Positions 19,582 through 31,091 of a stretch of 64,000 nucleotides of DNA are shown in pieces (the stretch's first letter is position 1; each line of letters begins with the position of its first letter). Below the pieces are notes generated by a model. The model was not told the origin of the DNA and made no database searches. It was given only the letters and a program-made list of their open reading frames with translations. Source of the DNA: Trebouxia sp. TZW2008 (taxonomy: Eukaryota; Chlorophyta; Trebouxiophyceae; Trebouxiales; Trebouxiaceae); NCBI GenBank assembly GCA_002118135.1, contig BDIU01000016.1, positions 62,001-126,000 on the forward strand. Direction: 5' to 3'. Both the position numbers and the translations under genes were made by a program.

Positions 19582-19651
19582 GACGAGTTGGTGATCTGAC
19601 CAGCTGCGATACAGCACACAAGTCACCTGCCCATCGAGTTCAAACTTGACC

Positions 19652-22600
19652 ATGGTCGCCACCATGCACTCATCAGCCGCAGTTCGTGTTCAGCCAGGAG
19701 CATGCCAAACAACATTCAGATCTAGAGCACCTCCCAGCACATCAACACGATCACGTGTCGTGCGCATTGCCGCTCAGGTGTGGACAAACATATGGCTTTG
19801 ATGGCGTATGCATGGCACACGTGTGCCGAACATGATGCACGAACAGGGCATCATCTGCAAAGCGTTGTACGTTCGATACGGCGCGAGGAGTTGAGTATGT
19901 CGTCATAACTTTTTGTTGTGTTCTGTGCAGAAGCCAGCTGACTCAGCAGGCCGACGTGATGAGGTGAGTCCTGTGGCGTCTGCATGGTTTCTGCAGAGGC
20001 GAGAACACTCAGCACGATGCAAACAGCGACTTGTTTGTTTGCAGAAAGGGCCCAGCCAGCTCGCCGTACAGTTTTTCGGCGCCGTCTCTGCTGCTCAGCT
20101 TGCTTTCTCAGGTACATGCATCACATATTTCTTGATCAGTCCAGCTGCACTCTCACACTCAGTTTCCTTGCAGCAGTTTTGCCAATTGATTGAAATGCAA
20201 AGCACTTGACTGTCGAGATGCTCATTGTGCTACTTGTGACCAGAACAATATGCATTTCCAGATTCTGCTGGCAGCTGGCAAGTGTTAATGACAAGTGTTA
20301 GTGATGTAGGTGGAGCAATTGCAGATGTTGCACGTCCTGTTGGCGATGTGGCCATCAGCTTCCCTGGGCAAGCCAATGACAAGGAGGCAGTGACAGCACC
20401 CAAGCCTGGCGAGGCCAAGGGCCTGCCCAAAGGCCCCACCGCCAAGCCCCCTAGCGGCCCCTCTCTACCCAAGGTGGGTGTGCAAGTCTGCTGCAATGCA
20501 ATGCACAGGATGACAACTCTCTTTGACATAGTACAAGATCATGACTGCTGAGCACAGAGTAGCTGTTGAGCATGCAAACAGCAGATGCATGGCACGCGTA
20601 ACGTTTCAAGGCAGCACGAGCATGTGTTACCTACACCACATGACACATCCTCACAGCTGCATGTGACACACATGTCTATGCTTGTCATGTCAACTTGCCC
20701 CATGTGGTTGCATAGCTGTAATCTCACACAGAATTGACCTACAATCACCGTTTCTGTGAATTGTGTATCCCAGAATGCTGACCTTTTCTAGCTATAGCAT
20801 GACTGCAAGGGGAATCTGGAAGTGAAGGGTGTACAGATCAGGCTCTTGATATCACAACTCACAGGCTGCAGTCTGCATTGCCTCGCATTTTCAGCATGCT
20901 GCTCTCCAAATCTGTTGCCAAAAATTGTGTGTGCTTTCTAACAGCTGCCAGGATCAGACGCTGGCAAGCCAGATGTGGCTGGAGCAGCCAAGGATGCAAT
21001 CAAGAAGAGCCCCTTGGGTTTCATGCAACTTGGTGATTTGGCCTTGAGCTTCCCTGGGCAAGCCAACGATAAGGAGGCAGTGACAGCGCCTAAGCCTGGT
21101 GAGGCCAAGGGCCTGCCCAAGGGCCCCACTGCCAAGCCCCCAAGCGGCCCCTCCCTACCCAAGGTGGGGTTGCATAGTTCTCAGCAGCCCACACCTTGCA
21201 GCTTCATGTCTTCGGTTCCCTCATATGCAATTCAGCTTTCACTACATTCATCTCGCTCTTCAAAGCAGCTTTTGCATGTGATCAAAGCCTTTGGACTGTC
21301 ATGTCAATATTTCCCTTTTCAAATATAGCCTGCAGTGCACACTGCAGCTTCAAGTGAAGGCTGGAACAAAGACTGGGCCATGACGTCAGCATGTCAAGAT
21401 GCCGTGGAACCAAAGGATGTTGTCACTTTGATGTCATTGAATGCAAGGCAGCACAACGCCACATGGCACATTTGTGTGACATCTGCAGACTGACAACAGA
21501 GACCTCATTGAAGCTCACCTCATAAACCGTGCAAGCTTCCAAAACTCAAGGCTACGCATAACAGCTCATACTGAGGAATTGTGTCTGCTTGCAGTTGCCA
21601 GGATCAGATGCTGGCAAGCCAGACGTAGCAGGCGCAGCCAAGGACGCTCTCAAGAAGAGCCCTCTAGGCGCCATGCAACTTGGGGATTTGGCTTTGAGCT
21701 TTCCTGGGCAAGCAAATGACAAGGAGGCAGTGACAGCCCCCAAGCCTGGCGAGGCCAAGGGCCTGCCCAAAGGCCCCACTGCCAAGCCTCCCAGCGGCCC
21801 CTCACTACCCAAGGTGCGTTTGGGTAGTCCATGTTATAGCTCATCTCTGCATATCTGCTTACACAACACTGTGCATTGCAATGCAGCTTCACACAGTCAA
21901 TGCATTGTGTCTGAGAGTAATTGTCGCTTGTCATACATAGGTTGCACCTCAGGTTGCAGTCCATCTGTAACACAGGGTTGAGGCCAATGTAAGCAAGCTA
22001 GTGGCGAACCCCTCATACATTCAGTCGCTGCATCATGAAATTGCCACATCAGTCACTAGTGGCACACAGAAGGCACACATGCTCACTGTATCGCAGCCTG
22101 CGATGATTTGAGGGCAGCAAATGGTGACAGGGCAGTCTATGTTTGTTTTGCGTGTCACAGCATGTTGCGCAAACCCAGTGCTACCTATTGCCATGTGACT
22201 TCTGCTTGCGGACAGCAGGGGCATTACTCTTGCCCCTTTGATGGCCTCTGTGACTGTACAACATGTTACGGCAATGAGGCAGCATTCAGTCAGCTCGGCG
22301 CTGACTCAACATGTGTTTCTGCAGTTGCCTGGATCAGACACTGGCAAGCCAGATGTAGCAGGCGCAGCCAAGGACGCACTCAAGAAGAGCCCTCTAGGCG
22401 CCATGCAAGTTGGTGACTTGGCCTTGAGCTTCCCTGGGCAAGCCAACGACAAGGAGGCGGTGACAGCGCCCAAGCCTGGCGAGGCCAAGGGCCTGCCCAA
22501 GGGCCCCACCGCCAAGCCCCCCAGTGGCCCCTCTCTTCCCAAGGTGGGTCCGGTTTGCCATCCTGGTGCCTGCTATATGCATATTGTCAAAGCAATTCTT

Positions 22601-25600
22601 GCTGCTTATGCATCAACCCAGGACTTTTGGGTTTGCTCCCTCAATTGCAGGTCTAGAGACATCCGTGCTGTTCATCACCAGGATATCAAGAGGTGCCACA
22701 TATTGCTACTCTGCGGCATGTAGCACCTCTGTAGGCTCCTGGCGATGGACCTGATGTGGCAGAAAAGCATGAGCGTGGATCATCTGCAACTGATGCCAAG
22801 CTCAGCGCCCTGCACTCATTTTTCTGTAGCTCATAGCGATTCTGCAAAAGAGTAGCTGCAGCCTGCGTTGATTTTGGTATGAGAGTCACTGGGCTGTGGT
22901 GCTGAACTTGCTCACTGCATTGTCAACCGGAAATGTGCTTGGGTCCCCCAGATGAAAACTGCCTTGCATACATAGAAGCGACCTGTGCCGAGATTCTAGC
23001 ACATCAGTAACTGTTGCCAAGTGCAGGTGTAAACACCCACTCTCCTGTGATGTCAGCAAAACCTTGAGAGTACAAGGCACACCTTGATTGTGTCCGCGTC
23101 ACTTGTTGCTGACGCAAGCGCACTTGCTTTAAGCTTGAGTGCAAATTCAGCATGCATACAATATGTAGTGACCCGAATTTTTTGTATTGCAGTTGCCTGG
23201 AGCAGATGCTGGCAAGCCAGATGTAGCAGGCGCAGCCAAGGACGCACTCAAGAAGAGCCCTCTAGGCGCCATGCAAGTTGGGGACTTGGCCTTGAGCTTC
23301 CCTGGGCAAGCCAACGACAAGGAGGCGGTGACTGCGCCCAAGCCTGGCGAGGCCAAGGGCCTGCCCAAGGGCCCCACTGCCAAGCCCCCCAGCGGCCCAT
23401 CCCTACCCAAGGTGGGTACAAAGCCCTTGCAAGCATACACCGCACTGCAGACACAGTGCGCATTGCACAAACTTGCATATTTCCAATTTTCTGTCTCTGT
23501 GCAGGTGACATGGTGTTCACATAGGTACACAAAAGACATCTGTTTGCATGTGACATCATTCCAAGCAGATTGTCGATCTGCTTTGTGGGCTCTGCAGCAT
23601 CACAGCACCTGCTGTGTTTGGCAAGCACCCAAAGAAGGGAACAGAACGATGCTGCTAGGTCTGTTATGCTCATGAGCATACATGCCAGTTCGGCACAAAC
23701 TGTGCCCTTTGCAAGCCCTTCCCCAAAACAGTTGCGCAACCATGTAAGCTTGATATATAGCCGGCTGGAATTCGCTGCTTTGTTTGCTACCCTGGCACAG
23801 CAAGTGAAAGTCAGTTGTCAGAGAGTCCAGACTGCATCTGTAGGCTGTATATTAGTGCAATACATTTGGCTCACATTTGTGGCTTCTGTGCTTGTTGGCA
23901 ATGCATCTGCTTTGCTGGGTTTCGTCAGATGGTTCTGCACCTATACATTGTAGATCACCTAGCAGCGCTGACAGCTTGCAGATTCTTTTGCACACAATGC
24001 TTTTGCCAACACAGCCAGACGCATGCAAGCTTGTCTCAGCTTCCATTGCCTGCTTACTGTGCCCTTGATTGCTGCACAGCACTCAGCAATGCTGAGCATA
24101 CACGTGGTTTTCTGCAGTTGCCTGGATCAGATGCTGGCAAGCCAGATGTAGCAGGCGCAGCCAAGGACGCACTCAAGAAGAGCCCTCTGGGCGCCATGCA
24201 AATTGGTGACTTGGCCTTGAGCTTCCCTGGGCAAGCCAATGACAAGGAGGCGGTGACAGCCCCCAAGCCTGGCGAGGCCAAGGGCCTGCCCAAGGGCCCC
24301 ACTGCCAAGCCCCCCAGCGGCCCCTCCCTACCCAAGGTACAACCCCACCTTGGGCTTTTTGACAGCAGGGCAGACAGACTTGATGTATACACAGATACAC
24401 AGACTGAAAATGGTTCCATCAGTGCAAGGCAGTCAAAGGCATCCACACAACTTGCTGCTTTAGGGTGCTGAATACCCCTATACAAGCTGCAGTGGTCCCT
24501 TTGAGTAAGGACAATTTCATGTAAGGACAAATGCCTTGGTAGCCAAAGCAGTCGTTACAGCAAGAGCTTTCTGTACCAGCTGTCTGCTTCAGCCAGCGCA
24601 GTGCTGAGTATGTATTTGGAACCCTGCAGTTGCCTGGATCAGACGCTGGCAAGCCAGATGTAGCAGGCGCAGCAAAGGACGCCCTCAAGAAGAGCCCCTT
24701 GGGTGTCATGCAAGTTGGGGACCTGGCCTTGAGCTTCCCTGGGCAAGCCAATGACAAGGAGGCGGTGACAGCACCCAAGCCTGGTGAGGCCAAGGGCCTG
24801 CCCAAGGGCCCCACCGCCAAGCCCCCCAGTGGCCCCTCCCTACCCAAGGTACATCCTAATCTTGGCTTCGTGAAACAAAGTTTGACAGAATGAAAGGCTT
24901 GTCGTATGGAAGAAAAGCAATATTTGTGACTGAAGCTCTGGCAAGCTTTACCTGGCTCTGTGTTTTCAGCAACATTTGTGAAAATTTATGCATGGCCTTT
25001 CTAGCTTGTTGGTTCAGAGGCCCTGTTGTCAGCAATGTCAGTGGCGCAGCTAACGTCATGTCAGGGTAATGTCCTTGCAGTTTGATGTGAGCTGCGGCCT
25101 GTGACAACGCAGCAGGCTGGCATCTGAACGATACATGCAAGCCTACATTGCACCTCTGTAATGTCTTTCAGCGAAAAAACATGTCGCACTTTGGTGTGCT
25201 GCAGCAACAACTGTCAAGATGAGGTTTTGTCAAGCCCTTAATTCAGCAGAGCATGTTGAGACAGCACAGCATATGTCCTTTTGAAGCAGGCATGCAATGC
25301 AGCCAAGATGCATGCATCAGCTGCAGCAGACAAACTTCTCTGCATTGGCCTCATAAGGGTTTACAAAATGCATTGGCCACATAAAGGTTTACAAAATGCA
25401 GTGCGCAAAAGCCTGTTGTAGGCTGCATATATCCTGCTCTGTCAATGTGCTGTACGTCCATATTCTGTGGCCTTTGAGGGGACAGGCAATACTAGCAAAG
25501 CGTGATCACTGTCCAAGCTTGTGGTCAGATGCAGCAGAGATACAATGGAAGGTGGCGGATTCCTGCCACCTTCGCCATGCTACCTGTGCTGCAAATGATG

Positions 25601-27714
25601 CCGAGTTGCACACTGTGCCTTTGTTTTGCATGTCCTGCGCTTGCAAGGTTGGTCACAACTACCTCAACCACCTTGTATCAAGCATTGGCACATTGTATAC
25701 CACGCTTCTGTGAACGCTTGGCATTACTCATATTGTTTCATACTCATCAGAAATGCTGATGGACATCGCCCACCTTGCACTGCTAACCACACAAGAATCA
25801 CTGCGTGTGCAGTTGCCCGGAGCAGACGCTGGCAAGCCAGATGTAGCAGGCGCAGCCAAGGATGCACTCAAGAAGAGCCCTCTAGGCGCCATGCAAGTTG
25901 GGGATTTGGCCTTGAGCTTCCCTGGGCAAGCCAATGACAAGGAGGCGGTGACAGCTCCCAAGCCTGGCGAGGCCAAGGGCCTGCCCGAGGGCCCCACTGC
26001 CAAGCCCCCCAGTGGCCCCTCCCTACCCAAGGTACACCTTGAGCTTGGCTTGTTACATGCAACTCAACAGGTTGAAAAGCTTCCTGTATGCCTTTAGCCC
26101 AAGCTCAATGAGCATTCCCAAGGACATCACTGCCAAGCCCCCCAGTGCCCCCCCCCCTACCCAAGACGGGCCAATTTGCTTGCCTTGGCTTTGCCATACC
26201 CGCTTTGGCCTCACATGATCATGTTGCGTCACAGTCGCTTTATGCTTAAAGATGCAGCAGACATGCATCAAGCAGTACTTACTGTGTGACCCATTGTTGT
26301 AATGTTCTGTCTACACACTTGCCAAACACTCTGGCAATGATCTCAGCTGCAGTGGAATGCAGATGCACTTGACTCACTTGCTGAGGCATTTGACATCTTC
26401 GTCATGGAACAACAATATCTTCGTCATGGAACAACAATGAATCATGTTGTTTTTGTTGCAGTTGCCTGGATCAGATGCTGGCAAGCCAGATGTAGCAGGT
26501 GCAGCCAAGGATGCATTGAAGAAGAGTCCCCTGGGGTTCATGCATGTTGGAGACTTGGCCTTTGACCTAAACCTGCCTGGGTCCAATGTGAAGAAGACTG
26601 ACCTTCCTGAGGGTGTCAAGCCCCTAGGGGGGTCCCCCAGCACCCCTGACCTTCCATCAAGTGGAGACATCAACCTCCCATCTCCCCCTAACCCAGCAGA
26701 GGTGCGTTTCAAGTGATGCATGTGCAAGCTGATTATTTTGCTTCGATTTGAATTTTGAACCCCAACAGCCCCCTTTTGCCTCATCCTCCGCCCAGTGCAG
26801 CTGGGAGGTAGGTCTAAATGCCAATTTCCACATGTGCAAATGCTTCTTTGTTTAAAGTTCCAGATGTTCAACTTGAACTCAAACCTGATTTGGCGTTTCA
26901 ATGTTGCCCATTGTCCCTACCATTGCTCCTGCCAATGGTTCATAATTGATCGCAGAGCCAGATTCCCTTGAGCGGAGTGAGTCTGTCAGGCGTGATCGAA
27001 GCACACGTGCTAGCTGCTTCAACTCACAGACGCTGTTTAATGATGCCCAGTAGCATGCCTATTTCTTTGTTTCCTCCCGCATTTGGTAAATGAATCATGG
27101 CCCATGGTCTTTGGTACTCAAAGCTGTATATGTTTTTTGGTTGCAGAGCCAAAACCCTTTGAGCGGAGTGAGTCTGCCAGATCTGAGTGGAGCTGCTGAC
27201 AGCGCCTCAAGCTTTGCTGGCAAGGCTCAGACAGCAGGCTCTGCAGTCTCAGGTCAGGCCTCAGCACATACTTAGGTCACCTCCAGTACCAAAACAATCT
27301 CAGTGAGGCGCCTGTAACAGTTGTGCGTTTGAGCCATTTTATTTTAGGCTAATCAGGCAGCACCTGCTGCTGACAGCTGTGCTGAAGCAGCTGTATTGAC
27401 TGTGTTTCACTGAAGCTGGTGAGGCAATGCCTAGCTGTACTACATACTATAGTTGCTGTAGCATCACGTGCTGTAGTATCACATCTCGGGCTGCCTGTTC
27501 AGGCAGAGGCTCCCGTTATGCCTCATGGCGTTGACTTTCCTTTTTTTTTGTCTTTTCTATCACATGCTTTTGTGATGTCTAGACTTGGCGATGCAGTGCT
27601 CTGGTGTTGTGAGTGCCGCTGCTGACTTGTGCAGGTTTGACAGATGCTGCTGGCAAGGCAGGCAATGCCAAGGACAGCTTGCAGAAGGCAGCTAATGAAG
27701 CTGGCTTGGAGTAG
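19652..27714 (+). CDS. Chloroplast-targeted tandem-repeat protein; one 73-residue repeat per exon
   Basis: No known family recognised. Thirteen phase-consistent exons: 19652-19777, 19931-19963, 20045-20111, 20262-20473, seven full repeat exons (20945-21163, 21595-21813, 22325-22543, 23193-23411, 24118-24336, 24630-24848, 25813-26031), 26462-26701, 27147-27252 and 27635-27714 (stop TAG): about 798 residues. Exon 1 (MVATMHSSAAVRVQPGAC..., Ser/Thr/Arg-rich, no acidic residues) is a convincing transit peptide; the ATG at 19652 is used because the second Met (19664) is in frame. Exons 2-3 give GRRDEKGPSQ then a hydrophobic segment LAVQFFGAVSAAQLAFSG, which could be a thylakoid-transfer signal or a membrane helix. 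Each repeat has a helix-like half (PDVAGAAKDALKKSPLG...GDLALSFPGQ) and a Pro/Lys/Gly-rich, probably disordered half (APKPGEAKGLPKG, AKPPSGPSLPK). It has about ten Lys and seven acidic residues, so it is net basic. The C-terminus is Ala-rich (GAADSASSFAGKA; AGNAKDSLQKAANEAG), LEA-like. Candidates are a Rubisco-linker-like, LEA-like or lumenal scaffold protein; none is established. Confidence 0.85.
24488..24575. mobile_element. Fragment of the pogo-like MITE family
   Basis: About 88 bases (GAGTAAGGACAATTTCATG... to ...GAGCTTTCTGTA) align with the right half of the 174-bp element at 50770-50943. It sits in an intron of the repeat-exon gene; the left half is absent. Confidence 0.65.
26097..26168 (+). 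pseudogene. Decayed 3' fragment of the 73-aa repeat exon
   Basis: About 65 bases after the donor of the seventh full repeat exon, the sequence again resembles the repeat's 3' end (CCCAAGGACATCACTGCCAA, then GCCCCCCAGTG). It has an expanded C run, a shifted frame and AAGGT changed to AAGAC, so the donor is lost. Confidence 0.8.
26956..26991 (+). other. Second, short copy of the 27147 exon; possible 12-aa mini-exon
   Basis: CAG then AGCCAGATTCCCTTGAGCGG... closely matches the start of the exon at 27147 (AGCCAAAACCCTTTGAGCGG). It could be spliced in phase 0-0 (SQIPLSGVSLSG followed by GTGATC), so it is either a decayed copy or an alternative mini-exon. Confidence 0.5.
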
Positions 27715-28718: not shown

Positions 28719-31091
28719 TCACATATTATTCTGTGTTTGCACTTGATCCACAGGACAAGATTCACTCGGCTGCTGCTGCTGCTCTTTAGAGGTGTTCTGA
28801 TCTTTCTCCTTCTGGCTGCGGACCTGAGTGCTGTATGGCTCAGGCTCAATCAACATGAAATGCCTTGCGTTGACCTTGTCATGAATATCCGTGTAGATTG
28901 ATTGAGCTATGCTAGCAACCCTGGCTTTGATTCCACATTTTGCTTTGGCGCTCTCAAAAATTCTGTCTGCAACATCTTTGTCGCTAGTAGCACTGATGAG
29001 TCTCCTCTTCTTTGAAGCACACCGCCTGTGCAGAGTGCTGAGATGGCGTATCTGGTGCTCACAGGATTCCAGACCCTGTTCAGGCTGATCCTGCCCTAGA
29101 TCTTGCTCATTCTGCCCTTGATCTGGCTCACTCTGCCCTGATAAGCGCTGATCCCGCTCTTGGTCTTGCTGCGGCTGCCGCTGATCCAGCTGATCCTGCC
29201 CTTGGTCTTGCTCATCCTGGCTTTGGGGCCGCGGTGCATGCTTTGCCTGCTGTGCATGCTCAGCAGGTCCTGGCATCTGCTGAGAATGTTCTTGCTGATG
29301 AGAGGGAGGGACATCACCTGATGTGCTTTGTTGCGCCCTAGCACCAGGGTGCTGTGCCATAGCTTTGCCTTCATTGCTTTGTGGCAAATGGACACCCTTG
29401 ACCACAGATTTGGTATCAAGCAGTTCAGCTTTACGCTTGCATTCTGGCCTGCAAGCGCCACTAGCTTGAGGTGTGTTGACCCTGCTGCTGTTGCTAGATG
29501 CGGGCTGAGGTACTGCCTGTGGCACTGCACTTTGAGGTGCTGTCTGCGACACTGTATATTGACCTGCTGCCTGTGGCACTGCACTTTGACCTGCTGTGTG
29601 TGACAGTGCAGCTTGAGGTGCTGTTGAGGGCACTGCACTTTGGGCTGTTGCCCATGACAATGCACTCTGAGCTGCTGCCTGTGAGACTGCATCTTGAGGT
29701 GCAGGTGGTGACATTGCATTTTCAGCTGCTGCCTGTGGCACTGCACTCTCAGCTGCTCTCTGCAGCACTGTACCCTCAGTTGCTGCCTGTGGCAGTGCAC
29801 TTTGAGCTGCTGTCAGGCAGGGAATTTGATTTGCTGTCAGCGACATTGCACTGTGCGCTGCTGGAAGGGACATTGCACTCTGAGTGGCTGGGAGTGACAT
29901 TGCAAACTGAAGTAATGCCTGTGACTCTGCACCTGGCGATAAGATGTTGGAAGCTGTTTCAGCGACCCCCCGCCTCTGATTAGCTGCCGCCTGGCTGGCA
30001 GCTTCAAGAGCCGCCTCAGATTCATATATGGCTTTGAAAAAGAACCTGTAGTCTCCGGGTGGTAAGCAATCAGTTTGTGGAGGGCGTTGGTTTTCTGGCA
30101 GTAGCAAGCTCTCAGCCTGCCTTGCTTCTGAAGTGTCCTGCACTCATGTCAATTAGCTGTCCAGCATATGCCAACTCAAAGGCTGTCAATGAATGAGCGT
30201 CTGATGAGTGTTTGTGGAGTGATCATGCAGTATGAATCAATTTGCAGTAACACTTTGGTTGTTTGCCCCTGCGTAGCTTGCCTTGGGATGTTTGCAAGGT
30301 CCCTCACAAACTTGTCGTACCGGACGTGTATACCGACGGTGGTCACGATAAGCTCATGCCAGCATGTTGTTGTCAACATGCATCCTTACCTTGTGTACTT
30401 CAGTACGCTTTAAGTGTAGCCACAGGTCTGCTTTGGACTTGAACCCAAGGCAGCATGTGGGACAGCAATGCTGACGCTCGTTTTGGGCCGTCATCCATTT
30501 TGACAGTTGAGCAGCAGCTTCCTTGGCAACTTCCTCATCCCTGTGCACTCAAACATCAACGCTTGAATGCATAGATGCAGGTCGGCAGTGCACTCCAAAC
30601 ATTTGCCCATGCCGTGTGGACATGCAGTTTACTTGCATCATTGCAAACTCTTCAAGCAAGCTGCTTCTTCTGTACCTGTGTTTCCCACTGTCCCTGAAGT
30701 GTTGAAGCAGGATCTGCAGTCTGGGAAAGGAGCGCTTGCACTTCTTGCAGTGAAAGTTCTGTTTCGCTTGGGATTTCCAGGTTATAGTTCCCTTCGAATA
30801 TCCTCTCATCTCTGCACAGAAAGTCATGTCAGTGCAGTATAGGAGGTGCTGCTGAATGCCCTCTTTTGTGGGGACGTAATGCAGTGAACGTCAGGAAAGG
30901 AGCGCACCTCTTTTGCGGATCTTGAGGGCACGTGCCTCGTCCTGAGCAGCTTCCTGCTCGTTGCAGAACTTATCCATATTGGCAGATGGGCTCTGTATAG
31001 CTGTATATGCTTCACCCACGAGAGTTGCAATATTCTCAAGCAACACCGCGGCTTCTAGAACTTTGTGACACAGAACACGAGCTGTCAGCAT
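28719..31091 (-). CDS. C2H2 zinc-finger protein with long Gln/Ala-rich C-terminus
   Basis: Probably a nuclear nucleic-acid-binding protein. Minus exons: 31091-30908 (MLTARVLCHKVLEAAVLLEN), 30811-30633 (first finger FHCKKCKRSFPRLQILLQHF plus RDSGKH: C-x2-C-x12-H-x5-H), about 30540-30390 (second finger with CPTCCLGFKSKADLWLHLKR, same spacing) and a large last exon 30137-28719. The join between exons 2 and 3 is uncertain: the CAA/GTAAAC donor does not fit the phase of exon 3, while a donor about 11 bases further on (AT/GTCCAC) does. The last exon has an Ala-rich array of SAVPQAA-like units, then a Gln/Asp stretch (QDQGQDQLDQRQPQQDQ), a basic patch (RRCASKKRRLI), a more ordered segment (ADRIFESAKAKCG) and a stop at 28719. 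Long H-to-H spacing recalls the U1-like/matrin type of finger, often RNA-binding. Head to head with the gene starting at 31343. Confidence 0.75.

Follow-up and report, generated by a model that had tools for sequence, protein, structure and literature searches.

We analysed a 64,000-nucleotide stretch of the Trebouxia sp. TZW2008 genome (contig BDIU01000016.1, positions 62,001 to 126,000 of the forward strand; hereafter the window), which carries on its + strand a repeat gene running from an ATG at 19652 to a stop codon ending at 27714. The gene is predicted to encode a 782-residue chloroplast precursor, in which a transit peptide and a hydrophobic segment precede a long chain of near-identical 73-residue units, each encoded by its own exon. 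The compartment is probably the thylakoid lumen, because a corrected splice site makes the hydrophobic segment a lumen-type signal. Our leading reading, which we hold tentatively, is that the product is an intrinsically disordered lumenal repeat protein acting as a multivalent scaffold, and we find that this best accounts for the fixed spacing of the units, their varying number and their tightly kept motifs. The gene, its repeat, the selection on that repeat, the family and the lumen-type signal can all be read from the sequence itself.

Gene structure and the repeat unit

The best model of the repeat gene has 14 exons, joined in phase across 13 introns that all have GT-AG borders. The ATG is preceded, 20 codons 5', by an in-frame TGA (stop at 19592), and the frame is unbroken to the stop codon, so that the closed, in-phase gene described in the first-pass annotation stands, although its count of 13 exons and about 798 codons is slightly off. 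The seven repeat exons, each of 219 nucleotides (nt) and 73 amino acids (aa), phase 0-0 and with AG/GT borders, were found as described there, as were the divergent half-repeats at both ends, located in exons 4 and 12. The features, all on the + strand, are as follows.

19652..19777, +: exon 1, stroma-targeting transit peptide (MVATMHSSAAVRVQPG...VVRIAAQ), open from the ATG, with the in-frame stop at 19592
19931..19963, +: exon 2, 33 nt, phase 0-0, GT-AG borders
20045..20111, +: exon 3, hydrophobic core of the lumen signal (QLAVQFFGAVSAAQLAFS), the hydropathy maximum within the first 160 residues
20310..20473, +: exon 4, end of the lumen signal (GGAIA/DVARP, with the slash at the A-x-A site) and N-terminal half-repeat, acceptor set by relatives
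20945..21163, +: repeat exon 1
21595..21813, +: repeat exon 2
22325..22543, +: repeat exon 3
23193..23411, +: repeat exon 4
24118..24336, +: repeat exon 5
24630..24848, +: repeat exon 6
25813..26031, +: repeat exon 7
26117..26165, +: decayed repeat-exon tail within the intron after repeat exon 7 (86% identity over 49 nt, expectation value (E) 1e-9; no GT after CCCAAG)
26462..26701, +: exon 12, terminal diverged unit, grouping with the terminal units of all five proteins (support 95/94)
27147..27252, +: exon 13, C-terminal Ala-rich region, by alignment to relatives; a low-confidence helix spans 523-563 in the model of relative P0002
27635..27714, +: exon 14, conserved C-terminus (...AANEAGLE) and stop, the GLE end being invariant in five of five proteins

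In a first model, which gave a 777-aa version of the protein, the exon 4 acceptor was placed at 20325; this was dropped for 20310, since the Trebouxia relatives align that way. At the start of exon 13, a partial second copy lies 191 nt upstream (26946-27002 against 27137-27193; 77% over 57 nt), and it was excluded from the model because no second copy is present in the relatives' proteins.

The repeats are selected as protein. Among the seven repeats, six of 73 amino acid positions vary, compared with 42 of 219 bases, 32 of these at third codon positions. Pooled over the 21 repeat pairs, the uncorrected silent difference (pS) was 0.259 and the protein-changing difference (pN) 0.0169; the low pN/pS of 0.065 speaks against a just-duplicated, unselected array. 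A search of the 68.5 Mb genome with the unit, in which all candidates were scored, returned nine places, which are the nine unit-bearing exons of the repeat gene itself. In the mature chain, eight KKSPLG units lie exactly 73 residues apart, together with the N-terminal half unit.

A gene-model artefact, in which the repeat exons are never joined in the mRNA, is barely credible given the 13 regular, in-phase introns, the pN/pS value and the long predicted relatives in four Trebouxia assemblies, even though the relatives' models are also predictions and two decayed exon pieces sit within introns.

The introns behave differently from the exons. No match between any two of the eight introns separating unit exons (20474-26461) was found at E 1e-3, and relaxing the search to E up to 1 and to short words turned up nothing beyond pieces of 11-32 nt (best E 0.022). 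In a control, a 706-nt intron mutated at 0.26 was recovered 50 times out of 50, at 0.36 in 36 of 50 and at 0.45 in 17 of 50, with indels not modelled. The repeat exons are therefore closer to one another at silent sites than the introns are. A trace of similarity persists beside the exons: over 54-nt flanks, agreement was 0.30 upstream and 0.28 downstream against 0.25 when shuffled, and between repeats 5 and 6 it reaches 0.50 on the upstream side. The contrast between exons and introns could come from exon-confined gene conversion, codon constraint or fast, indel-driven intron turnover.

We built a tree from 38 units of the five proteins, on few columns and with 19 of 33 inner branches open; the five terminal units grouped together (95/94), as did the seven internal units of the window (100/100). 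The terminal units thus look orthologous, and the window's internal units look to have been amplified or homogenised within their own lineage; the internal units of three relatives (C0004, C0005 and C0006, named below) do not form one group each. The decayed tail at 26117-26165 fits birth and death of exons, and the gene is a very clear case of protein growth by duplication of one symmetric exon.

A lumen-type targeting signal

The transit-peptide-like first exon noted in the first-pass annotation holds up as the start of a chloroplast precursor; it can be aligned to the N-termini of three Trebouxia relatives, the model of the fourth being without that part. That annotation had also placed a hydrophobic segment in a chloroplast protein. 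The segment stands, and its role is now that of a lumen-type targeting signal, shown with exon 4 beginning at 20310. With this acceptor the window segment reads LAVQFFGAVSAAQLAFSGGAIA/DV and ends in an A-x-A site; the signal-to-mature stretch is ...SQLAVQFFGAVSAAQLAFSGGAIA/DVARP, and that of the relatives ...SKLVMQLVAAVAAAQLAFPGTAIA/DINQP. A hydrophobic core followed by A-x-A is present in five of five full proteins, with Ala at -3 and -1 invariant and the AAQLAF of the exon 3 region unchanged in the alignment, and a transit peptide precedes it in four of the five (the P0004 model starts late). The same type of signal is carried by two further exons, P0031 and P0032; the latter has a search E of only 0.98, yet its 50 residues past A-x-A are identical to window exon 4. 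Arginine makes up eight of the 80 residues before the site and one of the 702 after it.

We assigned the signal by inspection rather than with a trained predictor, and compared it with lumen proteins of the same genome, where boundaries were likewise set by eye. PsbO (locus L011) shows GKAVATAGAALMMAG, an intron, and then SASA/LTYDE, and two PsbP-like proteins show SRRSLLAAAVAVPLINPARTLA/GE and RRQAMLAAAAAIVLPALVQPAKA/N. These proteins share the type of targeting signal with the repeat protein; PsbO and PsbP-like proteins are folded subunits of photosystem II and have no repeats of this kind. PsbQ, tried as a further control, yielded a single match under the cut-off and was set aside. The intron of L011 separates the hydrophobic core from the cleavage motif, and the repeat gene is interrupted at almost the same point.

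The hydrophobic segment might instead be retained as a membrane anchor, so that the repeats face the stroma and tie pyrenoid tubules to the Rubisco matrix, as RBMP1/2 are described to do in Chlamydomonas (PMC13159521). Such an anchor would suit a long and probably disordered chain that has one hydrophobic segment, close to its N-terminus. The A-x-A is conserved as in cut signals, however, an acidic residue follows the site with Lys or Gln before the segment (a weak hint of orientation, judged by eye), and no recognised Rubisco-binding motif occurs in any of the five proteins; we regard an anchor as very unlikely.

Relatives, conservation and predicted structure

Three protein searches were made against 5.8 billion proteins, with 8000 candidates scored in each. 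The first protein search returned four proteins, all from Trebouxia, and the first profile search the same four. These are hypothetical proteins (C0004, WJX77_003922; C0005, WJX79_010904; C0006, WJX82_003363; C0010, ABBQ32_010752) that share with the window protein the signal, the KKSPLG/GPTAKPP unit, the terminal unit and the C-terminus, at 51-64% identity. They differ in having 5 to 12 units, mostly 74 residues apart with four intervals of 104-125, and in the middle of the unit (DLPGSNVSKDDLPN against SFPGQANDKEAVT in the window). Across the five proteins, with 5 to 12 units each, 29 of 33 intervals measure 73 or 74 residues. In P0004 (from C0010), residues 631-644 appear to be a piece of unspliced intron, ICRQVTIFCVMMLQ, before LPG; it accounts for both Cys and for one of three Arg in the mature part, and the first exon of this model looks missing.

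A search with a shortened profile, at E up to 10, gave 28 matches, of which 27 lie at 1.7e-7 or below and P0032 at 0.98. One is an Asterochloris protein; the others are reading frames without names, 137-226 residues long, drawn from ENA, JGI, NCBI and one further source, and we take most of them for metagenome frames, a point on which the source table is silent. By pattern, 18 of the 28 hold a complete unit, in every case of 74 residues. All 18 units are followed by V (GT read through); Q (CAG) comes before 17 of them, and the remaining frame begins at the unit itself. These are the residues expected when CAG/GT borders are read through, so a layout with a separate exon for each unit seems to hold across the group. 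The unit tree was built from the five proteins, with the 28 matches outside it.

The Asterochloris protein (Astpho2/9432, EukProt) shares the LPGSxVTxxDLPxGPKP motif, present twice, similar Ala/Lys stretches and the KGLE end, and differs in its length of 216 aa, its order of units and a deposited model without a transit signal. Its place in the family rests on the profile match (E 8e-12) and on BLASTP with P0002 (52% over 96 aa). Searched against the window's genome at E up to 10, it gave no match, the repeat gene included, so equally distant paralogues would be missed.

No curated family could be credited to the unit, in keeping with the earlier view that it belongs to no named one. Pfam gave no credible match for the window protein (777-aa version, E up to 10) or for P0002, P0004 and P0029 (E up to 1). 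On P0002, PF13860 scores 30.9 bits and PF03531 27.6, and on P0004 PF03531 scores 29.8. All three values are above the curated cut-offs for a whole protein (27 for PF13860, 22.2 for PF03531), and we rejected these matches because no single stretch passes and the scores sum weak matches over the repeats. PF17850 on the window protein (22.6 against a cut-off of 29.7) and NCBIfam NF041248 on P0004 (27.5 against 200 bits) fall below their cut-offs, the second far below; PF08520 is found on P0001 solely as a ready-made label. Two units searched against PDB sequences had a best E of 0.28 (DHT03 protein A), and we found no paper naming the repeat protein in its title or the start of its abstract, supplements not being covered. 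The protein is thus unnamed, as its undescribed look had suggested, and it is not confined to one genome, having relatives in Trebouxia and Asterochloris.

Conservation was scanned over 63 columns of the 33 internal units (the first ~10 residues of each unit and the five terminal units excluded, the window gap placed by hand), and 26 of the 63 positions are identical in all units of the five proteins. Pairwise identity of consensus units between species is 0.74 in the helix half, 0.65 in the middle and 0.85 in the Pro/Lys/Gly half. The composition of the unit, an Ala/Lys helix half and a Pro/Lys/Gly half, is as first described; the second half looks to be more than a 'linker', because it is the most conserved part of the unit, which makes it as likely a binding element as the helix half. 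In the middle of the unit, LPGSxVTKDDLPxGPKP is common to Asterochloris, and the window keeps it in the terminal unit only, so a sticker would not be one constant motif.

The mature window chain has 702 residues (~68 kDa, isoelectric point (pI) 9.3), is rich in Ala, Pro, Gly and Lys, and contains no Cys, Trp or Tyr and one His. The pI values of the five proteins are 9.3, 9.1 and 8.7 in three and 6.8 and 6.1 in two, so basic charge is not kept in the family. An AlphaFold model of P0002, from a four-sequence alignment, has a mean predicted local distance difference test (pLDDT) score of 34.7, with 562 of 567 residues below 50. It places ten-residue helices in three of the five units and one helix each at the signal and the C-terminus. 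The model suggests a disordered chain with weak ten-residue helices.

Candidate functions in the lumen and stroma

Were the protein a lumenal scaffold, the first part of the precursor would take it into the stroma and the hydrophobic second part would carry it through a thylakoid translocase, which from the look of the signal would be Sec-type, like that of PsbO, with a cut after A-I-A. Each unit would offer a short helix of Ala and Lys together with a conserved stretch of Pro, Lys and Gly. Recurring along the chain, these could act as 'stickers' that bind an abundant partner in the lumen or the lumenal face of the membrane. The chain would then bridge many copies of the partner, as a tether or a condensing scaffold, with the pyrenoid tubules a possible site. 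Export into the lumen, disorder in the cell, binding, partner and site are in each case what we infer from the features above. A multivalent scaffold had been proposed in the first-pass annotation; the architecture fits that proposal, and the lumen-type signal makes the lumen the probable compartment.

Several observations weigh against a lumenal scaffold. The window signal is less hydrophobic than those of its relatives (1.49 against 1.67-2.08), and at a third PsbP locus, L013, which is the best match, no signal was visible in the frames printed. The four-sequence alignment also lowers pLDDT, and in a charge/hydropathy plot each of the five mature chains falls just inside the folded region. 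LPGSxVTKDDLPxGPKP is replaced in the window's seven internal units, and homogenisation among the repeats could alone give the near-identity within a species.

The main rival, which we nevertheless think unlikely, is a lumenal desiccation protectant resembling late embryogenesis abundant (LEA) proteins, a disordered filler rich in Lys, Ala, Gly and Pro that would coat thylakoid membranes or form a glass without a specific partner. A mature chain lacking Cys, Trp and Tyr and with one His, short helices in a disordered model of a relative, and a unit number of 5 to 12 would all suit such a protein. LEA proteins are counted among the means of desiccation tolerance in lichens, with group 3 LEAs and a dehydrin reported in Trebouxia gelatinosa (PMC8073698), and a dense lumenal substance, thought to be phenolic there, is reported to preserve thylakoids in a resurrection plant (PMC9855904). 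In contrast, no LEA or dehydrin Pfam model matched the window protein (777-aa version, E up to 10) or P0002, P0004 and P0029 (E up to 1), and the position-specific conservation of KKSPLG and GPTAKPP across species is tighter than a bulk filler should need. In T. gelatinosa, expression of two group 3 LEA genes and one dehydrin gene is reported as unchanged on drying (PMC8073698), and for this reason induction may be a poor test of a protectant. If it is a protectant, the protein could help to explain how the thylakoids of lichens come through drying, acting from within.

We consider it rather improbable that the protein is a stromal linker of the EPYC1/CsLinker type, condensing Rubisco in the Trebouxia pyrenoid, with the hydrophobic stretch as part of an unusual transit peptide. 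EPYC1, CsLinker and PYCO1 are disordered multivalent chloroplast scaffolds that link Rubisco (PMC13159521), and linkers of different lineages have little sequence in common (PMC11570498, PMC13159521). Trebouxia has pyrenoids (PMC9405249, PMC12712428), and the window protein roughly fits the shape sought by FLIPPer (mostly disordered, with repeated structured elements spaced 20-120 residues apart; PMC11570498), in spacing by its sequence and in disorder and helices by the low-confidence model of a relative. CsLinker of Chlorella sorokiniana is a disordered chloroplast protein, as the window protein probably is, with six repeats and helices of about ten residues, equivalent helix residues being 174 and 240, that is, 66 apart (PMC11570498). 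It differs in residing in the pyrenoid matrix and in binding RbcL through Phe and Arg/Lys of the helix, a pattern absent from the window protein, the comparison being limited to the residues named in that paper (PMC11570498). No PDB match to the CsLinker chain was found with its antibody peptide. The conserved lumen-type signal with A-x-A, assigned by inspection, the near-absence of Arg and Trp from the mature chain, and the pI of 6.8 and 6.1 in two relatives also count against a Rubisco linker. Neither F-[LMIV]-x-[RK]-[RK], our own pattern from the CsLinker contacts, nor [DN]W[RK]xx[LIVA], the EPYC1 motif, occurs in any of the five proteins. EPYC1, with units of about 60 residues, differs in its Trp-based Rubisco-binding motif, absent here, whereas the window protein has a lumen-type signal. 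EPYC1 of Chlamydomonas is a disordered chloroplast repeat protein (PMC11649565), which the window protein probably is as well. Searches for Rubisco linkers by shape can thus pick up proteins bound for another compartment.

The scaffold reading can be extended, doubtfully, to the proposal that a multivalent, disordered scaffold working inside the lumen evolved in Trebouxiales, where it would tether or condense a partner in that compartment, with the pyrenoid tubules as one possible place. Such a protein would be to the lumen what the Rubisco linkers are to the stroma, lengthened one exon at a time and kept uniform in each species. If so, scaffolding would extend to the compartment from which carbonic anhydrase supplies CO2 to the pyrenoid (PMC13159521), in a leading genus of lichen algae. 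The main text of the Trebouxia A48 genome paper describes bestrophins and carbonic anhydrases for the CO2-concentrating mechanism, and the terms linker, EPYC1 and Rubisco are absent from it (PMC12712428).

Two other frames of the window lie on the - strand. A 474-aa frame at 28719-30143, next to the repeat gene, contains many short repeats and much Gln and Ala, and Pfam gave no match to it at E up to 10; a reading frame at 13852-14394 matches Hexokinase_2 (PF03727, E 1.4e-17).

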